Part shown: positions 25,202 to 36,156 of the stretch, one piece after another | Layout: the number at the start of each line of letters is the position of its first letter | Numbering within the stretch: position 1 is the first letter of the stretch | NCBI GenBank assembly: GCA_945905835.1 | Contig: CAMDQJ010000022.1 | Coordinates: 1-41,399, forward strand | Reading direction: 5' to 3' | DNA from: Asaia bogorensis | GTDB taxonomy: Bacteria; Pseudomonadota; Alphaproteobacteria; Reyranellales; Reyranellaceae | Length of the DNA: 41,399 bases | Made by a program: the position numbers and the translations under genes | The notes under the pieces: generated by a model | The model's input: only the letters and a program-made list of their open reading frames with translations | What the model was told of the DNA's origin: nothing | Database searches by the model: none

Positions 25202-26899
25202 CTAGAACAACCCGACGATCTTGCCGTCCGCCGCAACATCGATGCTGTTGGCGGCCGGCACCTTGGGCAGGCCGGGCATGGTCATGATGTCGCCGCAGAC
25301 CGCGACCACGAACTCCGCGCCGGCCGACAGGCGGACCTCGCGCACCGTCACGATGTGGTCGGTCGGCGCGCCCTTGGCGTCGGGGTTGGTCGAGAAGCTG
25401 TACTGCGTCTTGGCGATACAGACCGGGACCTTGCCGAAGCCCATCGCCTCGAACGAGGCGAGCTGGTCGCGCACCGACTTGTCGACGGCGATGTCCTTGG
25501 CGCGGTAGATCTCCTTGGCGATGGTGCGGATCTTCTCGATGAGCGGCATCTCGTCGGGATAGAGCAACTTCATCTTGCTCTTGCCGCCCTCGATCACTTT
25601 TACGACCGCGCGCGCCACGTCGGCCGCGCCCTTGCCGCCCTCGGCCCAATGGTCGGCCATAACGGCCTCGACGCCGAGCTTGGCGCAGGCGGACTTGACC
25701 AGCGCGATCTCGGCGTCGGTGTCGGCGCTGAAGCGGTTGATCGAGATCACCGGCACCAGGCCGAACTTCTGCATGTTCTCGACATGGCGCTGCAGGTTGG
25801 TCATGCCGGCTTCCAGCGCCTTGAGGTTCTCGGTCTTGAGGTCTTCCTTCTTCACGCCGCCATGCATCTTGAGCGCGCGGATGGTCGCCACCAGCACGAC
25901 GGCATCGGGCATCAACCCGGTCTTGCGGCACTTGATGTCGATGAACTTCTCGCCGCCCAGGTCGGCGCCGAAGCCCGCTTCGGTCACGACATAGTCGGCG
26001 AGCTTCAGCGCCGTCGTGGTCGCCAGCACCGAGTTGCAGCCGTGCGCGATGTTGGCGAAGGGGCCGCCATGGATGAAGGCGGGCGTGCCCTCGAGCGTCT
26101 GCACCAGGTTGGGCGAGAGCGCGTCCTTCAGCAGCACGGTCATCGGGCCATGCGCCTTGAGGTCGGAGGCGCGCACCGGCTTACGGTCGCGGGTGTAGGC
26201 GACGATGATGTTGCCCAGCCGGCTCTTGAGGTCCTCGAGGTCCTTGGCGAGGCAGAAGATCGCCATGACCTCTGACGCCACGGTGATGTCGAAGCCGTCC
26301 TCGCGGGCGAAGCCGTTGGCGACGCCGCCCAGCGACGACACGATCTGGCGCAGGCTGCGGTCGTTCATGTCGATGGCGCGGCGCCAGGCGACGCGGCGGC
26401 TGTCGATGCCGAGCGCATTGCCCCAGTAGATGTGGTTGTCGATCAGCGCCGAGAGGAGATTGTGCGCGGCCCCGATGGCGTGGAAGTCGCCGGTGAAGTG
26501 GAGGTTGATGTCCTCCATCGGCACGACCTGGGCGTAGCCGCCGCCGGCGGCACCTCCCTTCATGCCGAAGCTCGGGCCAAGCGAGGGCTCGCGCAGGCAA
26601 AGCATGGCCTTCTTGCCGATATGGTTCAGCGCGTCGGTCAGGCCCACCGTGGTCGTGGTCTTGCCCTCGCCGGCCGGCGTCGGCGAGATCGCCGAGACCA
26701 GGATCAGCTTGCCGTTGGGCCGCGCCTGCAGCGACTTGATGTAGTCCATCGAGATCTTGGCCTTGTAGTGGCCATAGGGATCGAGATTGACCGGCGCGAT
26801 GCCGAGCTTCTCGCTCGCCAGCTCCATGATCGGCCGCTTCTTTGCTTCCTGCGCGATCTGGATGTCGGTCTTCGGATTGCTATGCTGCGTGCTGGCCAT
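25202..26899 (-). CDS. fhs: Formate-tetrahydrofolate ligase
   Basis: This 565-residue cytoplasmic enzyme makes 10-formyl-THF from formate, THF and ATP. The ATP-binding loop [18 protein letters not shown] lies near residue 73. It is followed by the family blocks [40 protein letters not shown] and [19 protein letters not shown]. Its length agrees with the family. AGAGG lies about nine bases before the ATG. It is the last gene of the leftward oxalate unit, separated from the formyltransferase by a palindromic repeat. In context it captures formate released by formyl-CoA transferase into the folate one-carbon pool. Confidence 0.95.
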
Positions 26900-27061: not shown

Positions 27062-27991
27062 TCAGACGAGGCGCGCGCCGACGGCGAGCTTGGCTGCCGC
27101 CGCCCATTCGCCGGCACCGACCTTCGGTCCGTCGGCGGGTTTCACGCGCAGAATCTTGATGCGGCCGTCCGGGCAGACGACCGTGAAGCCGTCGGCCTCG
27201 ACCGCGACGACTTCGCCGTACTTGCCGCCGATGCCCTTGGGGTCCTTGGCCGGCAGCGCCTTGACCTCGAAGACCTGCAAAGTCGCGCCGTCGAGCGTCG
27301 TCCAGGCGCCGGGTGCCGGATTGCAGCCGCGGACCAGCGGATCGATCTGGCGCCACGACTTGCCCCAGTCGATGCGGGCGATGTCGGCCGTCGCGCGGCC
27401 TTCGTAGGTGGCCTTCGATTCGTCCTGCTTGAGGCGCGGCGCCTTGCCGGCCTTCACCAGGTCGACCGATTCCAGCATCGCCTCGACGCCCATCGGGAAC
27501 AGGCGCTTGAAGTAGAGGTCGCCCATCGTGTCGGTCGGGCTGAGCGGCGTCTTTTTCGTCAGCAGCACGTCGCCGGTATCGAGGCCGTTGTCGGGCCAGA
27601 AGATCGACAGGCCGGTTTCCTTTTCGCCGAGGATGATCGGCCAGTTGATGGCCGACGCGCCGCGATAGGCCGGCAGCAGCGACGGGTGATACTGGATCGA
27701 GCCGTGCGTCGGAATGTTCAGGAACTCCTCGGGCACGAACAGGGTGACAAAGGCCATGACCTGCAGGTCGGGCTTCAGCGCCTTGAACTCTTCCCAGACC
27801 TCGGGCTTGCGGTACGAAGCCGGCTGGAACACCGGCAGCTTGGCCGCGACCGCCGCTTCCTTCAGGGGATCGGCCTTCTGGCCGGGCTTCTCCGGCGCCA
27901 CATAGACGCCGACGATGTTTTCGCCGCGCTTGAGCAGCGCCTCCAGCACGGCCTTGCCGAAGGCCTGCTGTCCGTGAACTACGATGCGCAT
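27062..27991 (-). CDS. Formyltransferase-fold protein like the N-terminal domain of 10-formyl-THF dehydrogenase
   Basis: This 309-residue protein has a formyltransferase N-terminal domain and a C-terminal OB-like domain. The segment GSIQYHPSLLPAYRGASAINW, then FWPDNGLDTGDVLL and ATYEGR, matches the hydrolase domain of 10-formyl-THF dehydrogenase (ALDH1L1) more closely than Met-tRNA formyltransferase. The catalytic His and Asp are His102 (HPSLLP) and Asp138 (GLDTG). The asparagine that bacterial Fmt has two residues before the histidine is a glutamine here (Gln100). It lacks the carrier and aldehyde dehydrogenase domains. The start at 27991 has GGAG upstream within the preceding gene's end. 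It may hydrolyse or transfer formyl groups between CoA/THF pools; the exact reaction is inferred. Confidence 0.85.
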   Translation of the reverse strand: MRIVVHGQQAFGKAVLEALLKRGENIVGVYVAPEKPGQKADPLKEAAVAAKLPVFQPASYRKPEVWEEFKALKPDLQVMAFVTLFVPEEFLNIPTHGSIQYHPSLLPAYRGASAINWPIILGEKETGLSIFWPDNGLDTGDVLLTKKTPLSPTDTMGDLYFKRLFPMGVEAMLESVDLVKAGKAPRLKQDESKATYEGRATADIARIDWGKSWRQIDPLVRGCNPAPGAWTTLDGATLQVFEVKALPAKDPKGIGGKYGEVVAVEADGFTVVCPDGRIKILRVKPADGPKVGAGEWAAAAKLAVGARLV

Positions 27992-27995
27992 GTCG

Positions 27996-29426
27996 TCACT
28001 CCGCTGCTTGGGCTTTGGGAGCTTCACCCGTCGCGCCGGACGCCTTGATGTCGGCGATCTCGCGCGGCGTGAACTTCAGCACTTTGGAGAGGATCTCGTC
28101 GGTGTGCTCGCCCAGCAGCGGTGAGCGCTCGACCTCGGTGATGCTGTCGGAAAGCTTGATCGGGTTGCCGACCGACAGGTATTTGCCGCGGGTCGGATGG
28201 TCGACCTCGACCACCGTGCCGGTGGCGCGTAGCGAGGGGTCCTCGGCCAGCTCCTTCATCGACAGGATGGGGCCGACGGGGATGTCGAGCGCGTTGCAGG
28301 CGTTCATGACCTCGAACTTGGTCATGGTCATGGTCCACTGCTCGATCACCCCGAAGATCTCCGTCAGTCGCGGCAAGCGGGCCGGCGGCTTGGCGTAGTT
28401 GGGATCGGTCTTCCATTCCGGCTTGCCGATCAGGTCGCAGATCTTCTCCCAGACCGGCGCCTGGGTGATGAAATAGATGTAGGCGTCGGGATCGTTCTCC
28501 CAGCCCTTGCACTTCAGGATGACGCCGGGCTGGCCGCCGCCCGAGTCGTTGCCGGCGCGTGGTGTCGCTTGGCCGAACGGGATGCCCTGGCCGAACTGCG
28601 TGTATTCCTTGAGCGGGCCATGCGCGAGACGCTGCTGGTCGCGCAGCTTGACGCGGCAGAGGTTGAGCACGCCGTCCTGCATGGCGCAGAGCACGCGCTG
28701 GCCGCGGCCGGTGCGGTTGCGCTGGTAGAGGGCGCTGACGATGCCGAGGGCGAGGTGCAGGCCGGTGCCCGAGTCGCCGATCTGTGCGCCGGTGACCAGC
28801 GGCGGGCCGTCCCGGAAGCCGGTTGTCGATGCCGAGCCGCCAGCGCATTGCGCGACGTTCTCGTAGACCTTGCAGTCCTCGTAGGCGCCGGGGCCGAAGC
28901 CCTTGACCGAGGCCACGACCATGCGCGGGTTGAGCGCATGGATGCGCTCCCAGGTGAGGCCCATGCGGTCGAGCGCGCCGGGTGCGAAGTTCTCGACCAG
29001 CACATCGCAGCTCTTCACCAGGCGCTCGAGCACGGTCATGCCCTGCTTGCTCTTGGAGTCGAGCGTGATCGAGCGCTTGTTGTGGTTGAGCATGGTGAAA
29101 TAGAGGCTGTCGGCGCCCGGCACGTCCTGGAGCTGGCCGCGCGTGATGTCGCCGACACCGGGACGCTCGACCTTGATCACGTCGGCGCCGAACCAGGCAA
29201 GAAGCTGCGTGCAGGTCGGGCCCGACTGCACATGCGTGAAGTCGAGGATTTTTACCCCGTCGAGCGCCTTGCCGTCCTTGCCCCATGGTTTGGTGGATGG
29301 CTTCTTCGACATCTTCGGCGCGGCCGCCTTGGCGACGACCTTCAGCGCCGGCTTCTTCGCTGCCTTCGCCTTGATCTTGTCCTTGCGCTTGGCCTTCTTT
29401 TCCTTCTTGTCCTTCTTCTTAGCCAT
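27996..29426 (-). CDS. frc: Formyl-CoA:oxalate CoA-transferase with polybasic N-terminal extension
   Basis: This 476-residue class III CoA-transferase moves CoA from formyl-CoA to oxalate. From residue 53 it matches Frc closely ([20 protein letters not shown], then [19 protein letters not shown]). The catalytic aspartate is Asp218 in [13 protein letters not shown], equivalent to Asp169 of the Oxalobacter enzyme with the 49-residue offset. The first 50 residues are a Lys/Ala-rich tract ([20 protein letters not shown]...), absent in usual Frc proteins. The start at 29426 is backed by a GGGG site about seven bases upstream. A methionine near residue 39 could give a shorter form but has no good site. 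It is 11 bases after oxc. Confidence 0.92.
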
Positions 29427-29437
29427 GGTCGTTCCCC

Positions 29438-31171
29438 TTACTTCTTCTTCAGCTGGCTTTGCGGATTGAGATTGCCGATGCGGCCGCTCTCGCTGCCGGC
29501 GGCCGGATCGATCGCCGCGTTGATGAGGGTGGGCTTGCCGGAGTCCATCGCGGTGTTGACGGCACGCTTCAGCTCGTCGGGCGTCGTGGCATGGACGCCG
29601 ACTCCGCCGAAGGCCTCCATCATCCTGTCGTAGCGCGAGCCTTTGACGAACACGGTGGGCGCGGGATCGCTGCTCACCTTGTTGACGTCGGTGCCGCGAT
29701 AGATGCCGTCGTTGTTGAAGACGACGATGCAGACCGGGAGGTTGTAGCGGCAGATCGTTTCGACCTCCATGCCGGAGAAGCCGAAGGCGCTGTCGCCCTC
29801 GATCGCAAGCACCGGTTTGCCGGTCTCGACCGCGGCGGCGATGCACTGGCCCATGCCGATGCCCATGACGCCCCAGGTGCCGACGTCGAGCCGCTTGCGC
29901 GGCTGGTACATGTCGATGACGCCGCGCGTCAGGTCGAGCGTGTTGGCGCCTTCGTTGACCAGGATCGCGTCCGGCCGTTCCTTGATGATGGTGCGCAGCA
30001 CGCCCAGCGCGCCGTGATAGTCCATCGGGTTGTTGTTGTTCATGAGGCGCGGCGCCATCTTGGCGACGTTCTCCTCGCGCTTGGACGAAACGGCGCCCAT
30101 CCAGTCCGCCGGACCCTTGGGCCAGCCGCCGCCCATGCCGTCGAGCAGCGCCGCAACGCACGAGCCGATGTCGCCCACCACGGGCGCCACGATCTCGACG
30201 TTGCTGTCCATCTCCTTGGGCTCGATGTCGACCTGGATGAACTTCTTGGGGGCGTCGCCCCAGGCCTTGCCCTTGCCGTGCGACAGCAGCCAGTTGAGGC
30301 GCGCGCCGATCAACATCACGACGTCGGAATCCTTCAGCACCGTCGAGCGCGCCGCACCGGCGCATTGCGGATGCGTGTCGGGCAGCAGGCCCTTGGCCAT
30401 GCTCATGGGCAGGAACGGCACGCCGCTTTTCTCGACGAAGGCCGTGATTGCGTCGTCGGCCTGCGCGTAGGCGGCGCCCTTGCCGAGGATGATCAGCGGG
30501 CGCTTGGCGCCCTTCAGCACGTCGAGCGCGCGCTTGATGGCGGCTGGCGCCGGGATCTGGGCCGGCGCCGCGTCGATCACCTTGACCAGCGATCTCTTGC
30601 CCGCGTCGGCGTTCATGACCTGGCCGAAGAGTTTGGCCGGCAGGTCGAGATAGACGCCGCCCGGGCGGCCCGAGACGGCGGCGCGAATGGCGCGGGCGAG
30701 GCCGATGCCGATGTCGGCGGCGTGGAGCACGCGAAAGGCCGCCTTGCACAGTGGCTTGGCGATGGCGAGCTGGTCCATCTCCTCGTAGTCGCCCTGCTGC
30801 AGGTCGACGATCTCGCGCTCCGAGGAGCCCGAGATCAGGATCATCGGGAAGCAGTTGGTGGTGGCGTGGGCAAGCGCGGTGAGGCCGTTCAGAAAGCCCG
30901 GTGCCGACACGGTGAGGCAGACGCCGGGCTTCTTGGTCAGGAAGCCGGCGATGGCCGCGGCATAGCCCGCGTTCTGCTCGTGGCGGAACGACAGGACGCG
31001 AATGCCTGCGGCCTGCGCCATGCGACCGAAGTCGGTAATCGGGATGCCGGGGACGCCATAGATCGTCGTGAGGCCGTTCAGCTTCAACGCGTCGATCATG
31101 AGGTTGAAGCCGTCGGTCAGGTCCTGCGTGTCTTCCGCGGCGCCAGGCGCCTTCAATGCTGCTTCGGCCAT
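29438..31171 (-). CDS. oxc: Oxalyl-CoA decarboxylase
   Basis: This 577-residue thiamine-diphosphate enzyme converts oxalyl-CoA to formyl-CoA and CO2. The N-terminal domain has [18 protein letters not shown] and [18 protein letters not shown] with the catalytic Glu65. The TPP/Mg block is [35 protein letters not shown]. The YGVPGIPIT and [10 protein letters not shown] segments separate it from other acetolactate-synthase relatives. The start has GGGGGAA seven bases upstream. It follows the gntR gene by 26 bases and precedes frc by 11. It ends in LKKK. Confidence 0.95.
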
Positions 31172-31197: not shown

Positions 31198-31887
31198 TCA
31201 ATCCAGGTAATCGACGTGCTTGGCGACATGCGCGGCGAGGCCAAGCGCATGCTGGCGCACCAGGTCCTCGGCGCGCTCGGTGTCGCGCGCCTCGAGGGCC
31301 TGGATGATGTTCATGTGGTCGCGGATCGAACGGTCGGCGCGGTCTTCCTCGCCAATCGTCTGACGGCGGATCATCCGCATGTGGGTGAACAGGTTCTCCG
31401 CCAGACGGATGAGCACCTGGTTGCCGCTCAACTCGATAATCGTCTGGTGGAAGGCGATGTTGACCTCGGAGTACTCGTCGAGCTTGGCGTGCAGCCTGTC
31501 GCCCTCGAAGGTCGCGAACATGCGCCGCAGCCCCGCGATGTCGGCGTCGCTGGCGCGCTCCGTGATCAGCCGCGCCGCCATGCTCTCCAGGGCTGCCCAG
31601 GCGGTGATCATCTGGATCACCTCTTCCTTGGTCTTGCGCACGACATAGATGCCGCGTCGCGGCACCGAGCGGACGAAGCCCTCGCGTTCCAATTGCGCCA
31701 TGGCCTCGCGCACCGGCGTGCGTGAGATGCCGAAATCCTGCGCGAGCTGACGCTCGTCAAGCCGGATGTCGGCGCGCGAGCGGTAGACATCCGAAGACAC
31801 GATGACGTTCCGCAAGGCCGCGTAGGCCTTGTCCTTGAACGTCTCCGGGCTGTCGATCGGACCGACCACCACGCGGCTTTCACTCAC
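31198..31887 (-). CDS. GntR/FCD-family transcriptional regulator
   Basis: This 229-residue regulator has a winged helix at the N-terminus (RLDERQLAQDFGISRTPVREAMAQLEREGFV, residues 42-72) and an FCD ligand domain. The metal-binding residues of the FCD domain are seen in FHQTIIELSGN and in IRDHMNIIQALEARD plus the final RQHALGLAAH. The start is GTG at 31887, with GGGGGAGG about eight bases upstream. It is directly upstream of oxc on the same strand and downstream of tctA, so it probably controls the oxalate unit in response to a carboxylate or CoA ester. A TGTAATACA palindrome lies about 25 bases before its start. Confidence 0.92.
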   Translation of the reverse strand: MSESRVVVGPIDSPETFKDKAYAALRNVIVSSDVYRSRADIRLDERQLAQDFGISRTPVREAMAQLEREGFVRSVPRRGIYVVRKTKEEVIQMITAWAALESMAARLITERASDADIAGLRRMFATFEGDRLHAKLDEYSEVNIAFHQTIIELSGNQVLIRLAENLFTHMRMIRRQTIGEEDRADRSIRDHMNIIQALEARDTERAEDLVRQHALGLAAHVAKHVDYLD

Positions 31888-31980: not shown

Positions 31981-33486
31981 TTACCTGCGTTGCGCTGGCG
32001 TCAGGGCCTTGCTGTAAAGGGTCGACAGGAACGGCCAGAACAGGGCGATCAGGCCCAGGCTCATGATCGTGGCGACCAGGCCGCTCGACCAGAACACGCC
32101 GAGGCTGCCCTGGGAGATCAGCAGCGACTGCCTGAAAGCCTCCTCGGCCTTGTCGCCCAGCACGATCGCAAGGACCAGCGGCGCCAGCGGATAGTTGCAC
32201 TTTTTCAAGAGGTAGCCCGCGACGCCGAAGACCAGCATCATGACCACGTCGAAGCTGTTGTTGTGCACGGTATAGGCGCCGATGGCGCAGATCACGAGGA
32301 TGACCGGTGCGATGACGGCGAACGGGATGCGCAGGATCGCGGCGAAGAGCGGCACCATGGTCAGCACGACCACGAGGCCGACGATGTTGCCGAGATACAT
32401 GCTGGCGATCAGGCCCCAGACGAATTCCTTCTGCTCGACGAACAGCAGCGGACCGGGCTGCAGGCCCCAGATCAGCAGGCCGCCCAGCAGGACGGCGGCG
32501 GTTGGCGATCCGGGCACGCCGAGCGACAGCATCGGCAACAACGCCGAGGTGCCGGCGGCATGTGCCGCGGTCTCCGGCGCGATGACACCTTCGATCTCGC
32601 CGGTGCCGAACTTGTCGCCGTTCTTCGACGCCCGCTTGGCGATGCCGTAGCTCATGAACGAGGCGGGCGTGGCACCGGCCGGGGTGATGCCCATCCAGCA
32701 ACCGATCAGGCAGGAGCGCAGCGAGGTCACCCAGTAGCGCGGCAATTCCTTCCAGGTCTGCAGGACCACGGCGGGATTGATGCCGGCGGCCTTGCCCTTG
32801 AAGCTCAGCCCTTCCTCCATGGTGAGCAAAATCTCGCCGATGCCGAACAGCCCGATGACGGCAATCAGGAAATCGAAACCGCCCAGGAGTTCGGTGGAGC
32901 CGAAGGTCAGACGGAGCTGGCCGGTCACCGTGTCGGTGCCGACAGCGGCCAGCGCGAAGCCCAGCATCATGGCCGCGATGGTCTTCGTCGGCGGCTCCTT
33001 GCCCATGCCGACGAAGCTGCAGAAGGCCAGGAAGAACACCGAGAATTTCTCCGCCGGGCCGAATTGCAGGGCGAAGCTCGCGACCAGGGGTGCCGCCAGG
33101 GTGATGACAATGACGGCGAACAGGGCGCCGACGAAGGACGAGGTGAAGGCCGCCGTGAGCGCCTCGCCCGCCTTGCCGTTCTGCGCCATGGGATGGCCGT
33201 CGAAAGTGGTCGCGACCGACCACGGCTCCCCCGGAATGTTGAACAGGATCGATGTGATGGCGCCGCCGAACAACGCGCCCCAGTAGATGCAAGAGAGCAG
33301 GATGATGGCCGATGTCGGCGACATGCTGAAGGTGAGCGGCAGCAGGATCGCCACACCATTGGCGCCGCCGAGTCCAGGCAGCACGCCGATGATGACGCCC
33401 AGCACGATGCCGATCACCATGTAGAGCAGGTTCTGCCAGCTCAGCACGACGGCGAAGCCGCCCATCAAGTCGCCAATGCTTTCCAT
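31981..33486 (-). CDS. tctA: Tripartite tricarboxylate transporter, large membrane subunit TctA
   Basis: This 501-residue protein has about 12 transmembrane helices. The family signature GVIIGVLPGLGGANGVAILLPLTFSMSP lies near residues 30-57. It is followed by CIYWGALFGGAITSILFNIPGEPWSVATTFDGHPMAQNG and a mirrored motif in the second half (SLGVPGSPTAAVLLGGLLIWGLQPGP). It forms the permease with TctB and takes substrate from TctC. It is 94 bases upstream of gntR on the same strand. Location suggests import of oxalate or a related carboxylate, but the substrate is not shown by sequence. Confidence 0.93.
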   Translation of the reverse strand: MESIGDLMGGFAVVLSWQNLLYMVIGIVLGVIIGVLPGLGGANGVAILLPLTFSMSPTSAIILLSCIYWGALFGGAITSILFNIPGEPWSVATTFDGHPMAQNGKAGEALTAAFTSSFVGALFAVIVITLAAPLVASFALQFGPAEKFSVFFLAFCSFVGMGKEPPTKTIAAMMLGFALAAVGTDTVTGQLRLTFGSTELLGGFDFLIAVIGLFGIGEILLTMEEGLSFKGKAAGINPAVVLQTWKELPRYWVTSLRSCLIGCWMGITPAGATPASFMSYGIAKRASKNGDKFGTGEIEGVIAPETAAHAAGTSALLPMLSLGVPGSPTAAVLLGGLLIWGLQPGPLLFVEQKEFVWGLIASMYLGNIVGLVVVLTMVPLFAAILRIPFAVIAPVILVICAIGAYTVHNNSFDVVMMLVFGVAGYLLKKCNYPLAPLVLAIVLGDKAEEAFRQSLLISQGSLGVFWSSGLVATIMSLGLIALFWPFLSTLYSKALTPAQRR

Positions 33487-33519
33487 CGATCCCCCGGCTT
33501 CCCCCGCCGCCCCTGGGTT

Positions 33520-34023
33520 CTAGAGCCCGAGCAGGTCCTCGAGCGGACCCTTCGGCAACGACAAGAGGAACCACTTCTCGAACGTCACATAGATGACGAC
33601 CTGCAGTCCCAGGCCGATGCCCAGGGTGAGCGGCCAGCCATAGCGCCCGAGCCAGCGCATGAAACCTATGATCAGCAGCGCGGACGATACGTAGATGCCG
33701 AGCCACGGCACTGCCGCGACATAGATCGCCATCGGCCACACGATCTTGAGGACCTGGGAGATCTGCCTCCATTCGGCGAACAGCTTCCGGCTGGAGTCGA
33801 GATAGGCCCGGACGAAGTTGGAGGCGCTGGCGGCCACGATCAGCAGGCCGACCCAGAAAGGAAAGAAGCCGGACTTCGGCCCTTCCGCCCCCCAGCCGAT
33901 GCCGACCTTGAGGCTGCCGAAGATGGTGATGGCGCCCAGCACCAGTATGGAGGCGGCAACGCCCATCTCGACGTGGCGGTGCCGTGGCCCGGACATATCC
34001 GAATCATCCGACGAATTGGACAC
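33520..34023 (-). CDS. tctB: Tripartite tricarboxylate transporter, small membrane subunit TctB
   Basis: This 167-residue membrane protein has four hydrophobic helices, with the family GWGAEGPKSGFFPFWVGLLIV segment after helix 1. The usual motif is P-x-x-G-x-x-P, seen here as PKSGFFP. The C-terminus ends in a basic loop and a final helix (LGLQVVIYVTFEKWFLLSLPKGPL). The start at 34023 gives a short charged tail MSNSSDDSDMSGP. It lies between tctC and tctA, 33 bases before tctA. Confidence 0.88.
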   Translation of the reverse strand: MSNSSDDSDMSGPRHRHVEMGVAASILVLGAITIFGSLKVGIGWGAEGPKSGFFPFWVGLLIVAASASNFVRAYLDSSRKLFAEWRQISQVLKIVWPMAIYVAAVPWLGIYVSSALLIIGFMRWLGRYGWPLTLGIGLGLQVVIYVTFEKWFLLSLPKGPLEDLLGL

Positions 34024-34077
34024 CGACGACCTCTTCTTGTTTTTGCAGGCGTGCGGGCGTGGACTGGCCGGTTGCGA

Positions 34078-35091
34078 TCAATTGGTGGCCAGGAAGCCTG
34101 CTTCCTTCATCAGGTCGCGATGGCGCTTTTCCTCGTTCTCGACCCACTTCGCGTAGTCGGCGCCCGTCATGGACGACTGGTTGAAGGCGCCGTCCTTCAT
34201 GAGCTGTGCCCATTCCGGCGTGGCGCGGACCTTCTTGAACAGGTCAACGTAGAAGTCGACCGCGTCCTTGGGGACGCCCGCCGGCATGAAGACGCCGCGC
34301 AGCATCAGGTATTCGATATCGAGGCCCTGCGACTTGCAGGTCGGGATGTCGGCCCATGACATGTCGCCGGCGACCTTGTCGGTGTAGGGCAAGGTCTTGC
34401 TATCGAACACGCAGAGCGGGCGCAGCTTGCCGGCACGCCACTGCGCGACCGCTTCGATCGGGTTGTTGACGGTCGAATCGATGTGTTTGCCCACGAGCTG
34501 GACCGCGACCTCGCCGCCGCCCTTGTAGGGGACATACGTCATCTTCTTGCCGATCGCCTTTTCCAGCGCGACGGTGATGATCTGGTCTTCCTGCTTCGAG
34601 CCGGTCCCGCCCATCTTGAACTGGCCGTTCGGCGCCGCCTTGATCGCCGCCACGTATTCCTGAACCGTCTTGTAGGGCGAGTCGGCATTGACCCAGAGCA
34701 CGAACTCGTCGAGTGCCAGCATCGATACAGGCGTCATGTCCTTCCACGAGAAGGGGATGCCTGTGGCAAGCGGCGTGGTGAACAGGTTCGACAGCGTGAT
34801 GACCAGCTTGTTGGGATTTCCCTTCGCGCCCTTGATGTCGAGGAAGCCTTCGCCGCCGGCGCCCCCCGCCTTGTTGACGACCACCATGGTCTGCTTCATC
34901 AGATTGTGCTTGGCGATGATGCCCTGGATCATCCGCGCCATCTGGTCGGCGCCGCCGCCGGTGCCGGCCGGCACGATGAACTCGACGTTGCGTGTCGGCT
35001 CCCATGCAGCCGCCGGAGCAACGCCAAGGCTCGCCACAATCGTGGCGGAGGCCGCGAGGGTGAACGCACGAAATCGACGTGACTCGATCAT
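34078..35091 (-). CDS. tctC: Tripartite tricarboxylate transporter receptor TctC (Bug family)
   Basis: This 337-residue periplasmic receptor has a signal peptide (MIESRRFRAFTLAASATIVA...AAAW) and then RNVEFIVPAGTGGGADQMARMIQGI, in which the G-T-G-G-G-A-D loop binds the ligand carboxylate. The QTMVVVNKAGGAGGEGFLDI and YVPYKGGGEVAVQLVGKHID blocks are also typical. The start at 35091 is preceded by GGGAGGAG about nine bases upstream. It is the first gene of the tctCBA unit, divergent from the LysR gene. It is distinct from the orphan receptor at 8719-9687. Confidence 0.92.
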   Translation of the reverse strand: MIESRRFRAFTLAASATIVASLGVAPAAAWEPTRNVEFIVPAGTGGGADQMARMIQGIIAKHNLMKQTMVVVNKAGGAGGEGFLDIKGAKGNPNKLVITLSNLFTTPLATGIPFSWKDMTPVSMLALDEFVLWVNADSPYKTVQEYVAAIKAAPNGQFKMGGTGSKQEDQIITVALEKAIGKKMTYVPYKGGGEVAVQLVGKHIDSTVNNPIEAVAQWRAGKLRPLCVFDSKTLPYTDKVAGDMSWADIPTCKSQGLDIEYLMLRGVFMPAGVPKDAVDFYVDLFKKVRATPEWAQLMKDGAFNQSSMTGADYAKWVENEEKRHRDLMKEAGFLATN

Positions 35092-35129
35092 GGTCAGGGC
35101 TCCTCCCGAGGTTCTTTTCTTGGTAGTTC

Positions 35130-35146
35130 TTGCAATAATCCTACAA
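35130..35146. promoter_or_regulatory. Candidate LysR-type site in the tctC-lysR gap
   Basis: TTG-N11-CAA occurs in the divergent gap (TTGCAATAATCCTACAA), a T-N11-A arrangement with arms matching at four of five positions. It is placed where a LysR-type protein could bind to control both its own gene and tctCBA. It is a single weak motif, and it overlaps the alternative upstream ATG of the regulator. Confidence 0.3.
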
Positions 35147-35196
35147 TGGATTTTTCGACCGGTCGAGCGCCGGTACCCGGATCGCGTGTGGGCGAC

Positions 35197-36090
35197 ATGA
35201 TCGACAAACTCGAATTCCTTCTTGCCCTGGCGCGGGAAAAGAACTTCGGCAAGGCCGCCGGGCAGTGCGGCGTGACCCAGCCGACCTTCTCCGCCGGCAT
35301 CAAGCAGCTCGAGGCGACGCTGGGCGTACTGCTCGTTCACCGCAGCTCGCGGTTTATCGGCTTCACCGCCGAGGGCGAACGCGTCCTCGACTGGGCGCGC
35401 GGCATCGTGGCCGACAGCCGCGCGATGCGGCAGGAACTGCGGGGTCTCAAGCATGGCCTGGTCGGCCGGCTGAAGGTCGCCGCGATCCCGACGGCCCTGC
35501 CCATGGTGTCGGCGCTCACCACGCCCTTCCGCGCCCGGCATCCCAACGTCACCTTCACCGTCCTGTCGCGGACCTCGGTCGAGATTCTGTCGATGCTGGA
35601 AAATCTCGAGATCGATGCCGGCCTCACCTACATCGACAACGAGCCGCTCGGCCGTGTGCGCGCCGTGCCGCTCTATTTCGAGCATTATCGCCTGCTCACG
35701 TCGGAGACGAGCCCACTGGGCGATCGCTATAGCGTCACCTGGGCCGAGGTTGCCGGGATCCCGCTCTGCCTGCTGACGCCGGACATGCAGAACAGACGCA
35801 TCATCGATCAGCTGCTGCGCGCCGCAGGCGCCGGCGTGCCCGATCCCACACTCGAATCGAACTCGATGATCGTGCTGTTCTCGCACGTGCGGACAGGCCG
35901 TTGGGCAAGCGTTATGCCGGAGAAGCTCGCCGACACCCTGGGCCTGACGGAGCACCTGCGCTCCATCCCGATCATCGAGCCGGAGGCGGTTCATGGCATC
36001 GGGCTGGTGGTCTCGGATCGCGAACCCATGCCACCGTTGGCCGCCGCCCTGGTCGCCGAGGCAAAACTGCTGGCCGAGACGCTGTGCTAA
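35197..36090 (+). CDS. LysR-family regulator, probable controller of formate dehydrogenase genes
   Basis: This 297-residue regulator has the N-terminal helix-turn-helix MIDKLEFLLALAREKNFGKAAGQCGVTQPTFSAGIKQLE and an effector domain with IPTALPMVSALTTPFRARHPNVTFTVLSRTS. It closely resembles the LysR proteins found next to fds operons. The start ATG at 35197 matches the family N-terminus; an in-frame ATG at 35146 would add 17 residues that look unrelated. It precedes fdsG by 155 bases on the same strand and is divergent from tctC, so it may control either side or both. Confidence 0.9.
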   Translation: MIDKLEFLLALAREKNFGKAAGQCGVTQPTFSAGIKQLEATLGVLLVHRSSRFIGFTAEGERVLDWARGIVADSRAMRQELRGLKHGLVGRLKVAAIPTALPMVSALTTPFRARHPNVTFTVLSRTSVEILSMLENLEIDAGLTYIDNEPLGRVRAVPLYFEHYRLLTSETSPLGDRYSVTWAEVAGIPLCLLTPDMQNRRIIDQLLRAAGAGVPDPTLESNSMIVLFSHVRTGRWASVMPEKLADTLGLTEHLRSIPIIEPEAVHGIGLVVSDREPMPPLAAALVAEAKLLAETLC

Positions 36091-36156
36091 AAAGGTATTT
36101 GTTATCAATGTATTAGAGAGTATATCGGCTCAAATCCGACCAAATACTCCTCAACG

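Follow-up and report, generated by a model that had tools for sequence, protein, structure and literature searches.

Could an enzyme of bacterial catabolism carry a histone-like arm that is kept for its charge? This question is raised by a formyl-CoA transferase (Frc) gene in the window, that is, the whole stretch of 41,399 nucleotides that was analysed. An earlier note, made from the letters alone, had described about the first 50 residues of this Frc (29276-29426) as polybasic and as similar to a histone H1 tail in composition, ahead of a perfectly normal Frc domain. The polybasic stretch is real, and it covers residues 1-52 (29271-29426), which include 21 K, 10 A, 1 R, 3 D and 1 E and have a net charge of +18. 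The domain behind it is indeed a normal one, since the match to the TIGR03253 equivalog model starts at residue 53, covers residues 53-465 and scores 702.8 bits, above the cut-off of 504.2.

The frc gene and its neighbourhood

The features of the locus, all on the minus strand, are as follows.

25202-26899, minus strand: fhs, formate-tetrahydrofolate ligase (profile match, locus comparison)
27062-28027, minus strand: formyltransferase-like gene after frc, as the listed ORF (ORF listing, profile match, locus comparison)
27996-29426, minus strand: Frc gene, 476 aa plus stop (ORF listing, translation)
27999-29270, minus strand: Frc catalytic core, residues 53-476, CoA-transferase family III (domain and profile matches)
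29271-29306, minus strand: Frc junction segment, residues 41-52, with an end of the K-P/A/G-x-G-x-x-G type (alignment; model pLDDT 67 for residues 41-50)
29271-29426, minus strand: Frc polybasic N-terminal tail, residues 1-52, net +18 (common to 39 distinct proteins, the window's included)
29427-29445, minus strand: ribosome-binding region 5' of the tail ATG, including AAGGGG (pairing prediction)
29438-31171, minus strand: oxc, oxalyl-CoA decarboxylase (profile match)
31198-31887, minus strand: GntR/FCD regulator gene preceding oxc in the same orientation (domain match, locus comparison)

The stop of oxc is separated from the tail ATG by 11 bases, and the neighbouring oxc is consistent with the formyl-CoA:oxalate CoA-transferase activity predicted for the window Frc. 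The formyltransferase-like gene, whose true start is probably further in than that of the listed ORF, scores 157.2 against the methionyl-tRNA formyltransferase model, below the cut-off of 201.5, and may serve in the handling of oxalate-derived formyl groups. Further upstream (31981-36108, minus strand), there are genes which, judged by eye, resemble those of tripartite tricarboxylate transporters, perhaps for oxalate uptake.

Translation of the tail

It had also been claimed that the ribosome site supports the upstream start, and this holds for the relatives of the window Frc, but not for the window taken alone. With the 16S end that we assume as the anti-Shine-Dalgarno sequence, the predicted pairing is -7.3 kcal/mol at the tail ATG of the window and -6.0 kcal/mol at its sole internal ATG, M39, so the ribosome site by itself leaves the start unsettled there. 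Among the 39 distinct tailed proteins, 38 tail ATGs pair at -5 kcal/mol or better (mean -7.5; the weakest, in L024, at -3.5), as do 51 of the 473 other ATG triplets, which lie in the cores. There is no internal ATG in 24 of the 39 tails; the others contain 17 such ATGs with a mean of -2.3, of which the three best pair at -9.3, -6.0 (in the window Frc) and -4.7. GTG or TTG codons lie within 31 of the 39 tails (55 sites, mean -2.5, 8 of them at -5 or better), while five tails are devoid of internal start codons. Calculated from 13 independent close pairs, pN/pS is 0.47 for the tail, a rough value owing to the gapped alignment of low-complexity sequence, versus 0.13 for the core. Based on the pairing at the tail ATGs, the absent internal ATGs and this ratio, the tail evolves as loosely constrained protein. 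The comparison therefore supports the conclusion that the tail is coding, with the start at the tail ATG favoured by the relatives. For annotation, this means that a downstream start call would remove a conserved part of Frc.

It should be noted that, on the minus strand of the window, the reading frame of frc continues without a stop well into oxc, giving an ORF of 917 aa (27996-30749), which is probably a GC-rich shadow frame, since the frame is stopped near the core in most relatives. An Oxc-Frc fusion was considered and rejected; in most relatives the stop is no more than about 120 codons away from the core, with longer distances in L017, L021 and L064.

Composition, predicted structure and charge of the tail

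The set of tailed Frc proteins consists of that of the window, those of 15 of the 80 best genome-contig loci, 15 from loci of the same genus and nine from a sample of the class, that is, 40 in total, 39 of which are distinct. The 39 distinct tails are 39 to 99 residues long (median 56), and their mean composition is 30.5% K, 21.9% A and 8.6% P, with 2.9% D+E; the likeness to histone H1 thus extends to the whole set, which is K/A/P-rich and of low complexity. All 39 tails end in K-P/A/G-x-G-x-x-G or RPFG-x-x-G and 38 start with MA[KT], while an LKVVA- or KVVKL-like patch, a loose pattern fitted after inspection, is present in 28. A Pfam scan of five of the 40 tails gave no match, with HMMER filters that drop weak matches. 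In the AlphaFold model built with 49 sequences, which is of moderate quality (mean pLDDT 68.3; a poor 17-sequence model, at 50.8, was left out), residues 1-40 are coil with pLDDT of about 40 and no secondary structure, and the values rise to 67 for residues 41-50 and to 85 for residues 51-60, entering the core. This moderate model suggests that residues 1-40 form a disordered arm.

The mean pairwise identity is 60% for the tails versus 85% for the cores, and yet the net charge of the tails stays between +12 and +29, with a mean of 18.2 and sd of 3.2. In a simulation of neutral drift to 60% identity, by random mutation at an assumed 65% GC, the charge changed by -8.0 on average (sd 3.2). These comparisons support the view that the tail is retained as a trait and is held to its charge more than to its exact sequence. 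Such retention of charge while the sequence changed suggests that the tail helps Frc to attach to something anionic, for instance DNA, RNA or polyphosphate. In addition, the cores of tailed Frc are less acidic than those of untailed Frc (mean net charge +0.8 for 39 vs. -5.5 for 65), which relatedness alone may explain.

Distribution of the tail

Among the best 80 genome-contig loci, 15 are tailed, one (L027) has the junction only and 64 are untailed. In the window's genus, 17 of the 37 genomes, including that of the window, have an Frc match (E up to 1e-150), and a tailed copy is present in all 17; in the class sample of 385 genomes, 27 have a match (E up to 1e-200), 10 of which are tailed. 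The alignment across relatives that the earlier note had called for thus finds the tail in the window's genus wherever there is an ortholog, but not in Bradyrhizobium, since all loci with that title among the best 80 are untailed, while two titled Bradyrhizobiaceae (L013 and L022) are tailed.

In a tree of 81 cores, for which the untailed rows were chosen by us, all 39 tailed proteins fall together with the untailed L027, L032 and L104 in a clade of 42 with an SH-aLRT support of 97. The tree implies four changes, for which a single gain followed by three losses is the simplest account, and the placement of L104 is weak (long branch, support 81). The first tree agrees, with an 18-row clade of which 16 rows are tailed, three changes and a support of 98/81. 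As far as core sequences can tell, the tail marks one Frc clade, most simply with one gain and few losses, and is a clade-specific conserved extension of a known enzyme. The comparison also supports the idea that the tail is dispensable for Frc as a family. In G013, a genome of the window's genus, a tailed Frc (L106) that runs off the contig occurs together with a diverged untailed one (L104), and the natural tailed and untailed forms, both found in this genome, offer ready pairs for comparison. Another genome, G006, contains a 61% paralogue (L107) in which the tail is absent.

The neighbouring genes divide the loci in the same manner. At all 15 other tailed genome-contig loci, the formyltransferase-like gene is 75-91% identical to that of the window, and GntR is 72-91% identical at 13 of the 15, whereas the untailed loci, where these genes are present in the fetched stretch, show 46-59% and 49-58%, respectively, with L086 (formyltransferase 74%) as the exception. 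The junction-only L027 groups with the tailed loci (formyltransferase 79%, GntR 70%). Consequently, the tail seems to mark one operon lineage. The history of the hosts is not read from its distribution, because the hosts of MAG contigs are loosely named. The record names of L009 (Asaia), L019 (Rhizobium) and L073 (Rubripirellula) look doubtful for the Frc clades of those MAG contigs. At L017, the gene before frc (819-2573) encodes a divergent TPP enzyme, which scores below threshold for all 25 NCBIfam models shown; TPP enzymes also stand beside frc at L045, L066, L068, L083 and L084, and those of the six loci are only about 23-26% identical to the window Oxc.

In the genomes searched, the tail profile matches Frc almost exclusively. 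In the window's own genome, 52 places match the enzyme, some of them being pieces of one gene, and the profile built from the tail alone marks the window Frc only, the next match having an E of 7.6. In 61 genomes of the genus, 24 of the 25 matches of this profile are on Frc (exception L155), and in the 385 class genomes, with at most 17 candidates per genome scored, 8 of 8 are; the profile misses real tails in G021, G158 and G310 and leaves room for other kinds of K-rich tail elsewhere.

Comparison with known systems

The solved Frc/YfdW chains (TIGR03253; PDB 1p5h, 1pt5 and 1pqy) share the whole catalytic core with the window Frc (residues 53-465), whereas their matches start at or near the core start and leave the window tail without a counterpart. 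Residue 3 of 1p5h, which we take to be the Oxalobacter Frc, aligns to residue 53 of the window Frc and there is no tail, in agreement with the earlier statement that the Oxalobacter enzyme has no such lead. Among the matches listed by our literature searches (titles and abstract starts), there was no publication on an Frc with a lysine-rich N-terminal extension.

The closest likeness in composition is to the tails of AlgP and PhaF, which are also low-complexity, K/A/P-rich polycations predicted to be disordered; among the Frc tails, those of L111-L113 are full of KKPA/KKAA. The tail of AlgP is reported to be a 154-residue C-terminal repeat region (PMC9239181), whereas the Frc tail is N-terminal, has 39-99 residues and is attached to a metabolic enzyme. 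The same paper likens the K/P/A tail of AlgP to histone H1, and reports DNA binding by its fragments and by KPAA peptides as well as a role of AlgP in the spacing of polyphosphate granules (PMC9239181). KPAA is found in six of the 39 Frc tails and is absent from that of the window. PASK and PASK-like segments, such as those of YihI and RNase R, share with the tail a disordered lysine-rich region. In E. coli, these regions of both proteins are reported to bind polyphosphate, in a study that defines PASK as a 20-residue stretch containing one K and consisting of D/E/S/K to at least 75% (PMC12345225). The window tail (L001) reaches 0.75, exactly at the threshold, and is one of seven tails within the strict definition, which 32 of the 39 fail; as descriptions of the tail family, strict PASK and KPAA-repeat were therefore rejected, since neither is shared (7/39 and 6/39). 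The study further reports that YihI no longer bound polyphosphate when K was replaced by R or when acidic residues were missing (PMC12345225), and consequently net charge alone may not suffice for such binding. The Frc tails are poor in acidic residues.

What could the arm do?

By analogy, a polyanion-binding arm, AlgP/PhaF-like in composition, is the best reading. We propose it tentatively, with somewhat less than even confidence, as a translated, disordered, lysine/alanine-rich arm on the Frc of one alphaproteobacterial operon lineage that is kept for its charge and concentrates formyl-CoA/oxalate turnover by non-specific polyanion binding. Each Frc subunit would present an arm of about +18, which could bind nucleoid DNA, RNA/ribosomes or polyphosphate and thereby gather the turnover on the scaffold, while the short KPWG junction might space the arm or pack it against the core. 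A constant charge with a free sequence fits non-specific electrostatic binding, and such a histone-like arm on a catabolic enzyme, if true, would place bacterial metabolism on a polyanion scaffold. Domain matches for polyphosphate kinase and PHA synthase are present in the window's genome, although little can be read from the kinase, which is widespread, occurring in 7 of 14 control genomes. The clade rows without a tail (L027, L032 and L104), the lack of KPAA in the window tail and its rarity in the others, the small number of tails within strict PASK and the empty Pfam scan of five tails count against the polyanion-binding arm.

The substrates of Frc, oxalate and CoA thioesters, are anions, and oxc adjoins frc in the window, with a near-complete Oxc upstream at 12 of the 15 other tailed genome-contig loci (L019 and L020 are truncated where their contigs end, and L017 has another enzyme). 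The arm might attract the anionic oxalate and CoA thioesters or dock Oxc, and so speed the exchange between the two enzymes. However, the mean net charge of the TPP enzyme is +1.5 beside tailed Frc (13 near-complete) versus -1.1 beside untailed Frc (51), with one or more divergent TPP enzymes in each group, and that of the window Oxc is +1. The earlier idea of Oxc as the partner of the tail is weakened, since the Oxc beside tailed Frc is not acidic, although a local acidic patch would still be compatible with the net charge. In addition, L017 combines the longest tail with a divergent TPP neighbour, and the solved Frc enzymes are tail-free; overall, we regard such steering as unlikely. We see a slightly smaller chance that the arm aids solubility, stability or expression in general, with no binding partner, as its predicted disorder, high charge and sequence turnover would allow, because the charge is always strongly positive, not merely high, and the tail profile singles out Frc among all the enzyme-matching places of the genome.

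Polybasic stretches can bind acidic lipids, and an arm bound to the anionic inner membrane would place Frc near oxalate uptake; yet the hydrophobic or small-residue runs are short (3 in most tails, maximum 6) and no tail helix is predicted in the model, which makes this reading decidedly improbable. The wide range of lengths and the three tail-free clade rows might even point to a neutral by-product, in which AAG slippage or an upstream start created a drifting tail, but pN/pS is below 1, the charge is undiminished at 60% mean identity and the tail is present in several families, so that we hold this to be very improbable. Finally, we give hardly any credence to an elaboration of the polyanion-binding arm into a charge switch, in which the unmodified arm would sit on the nucleoid, RNA or polyphosphate, and acylation of its lysines by formyl-CoA or oxalyl-CoA would remove the charge and free Frc; if true, it would be a metabolic counterpart of histone-tail acylation.
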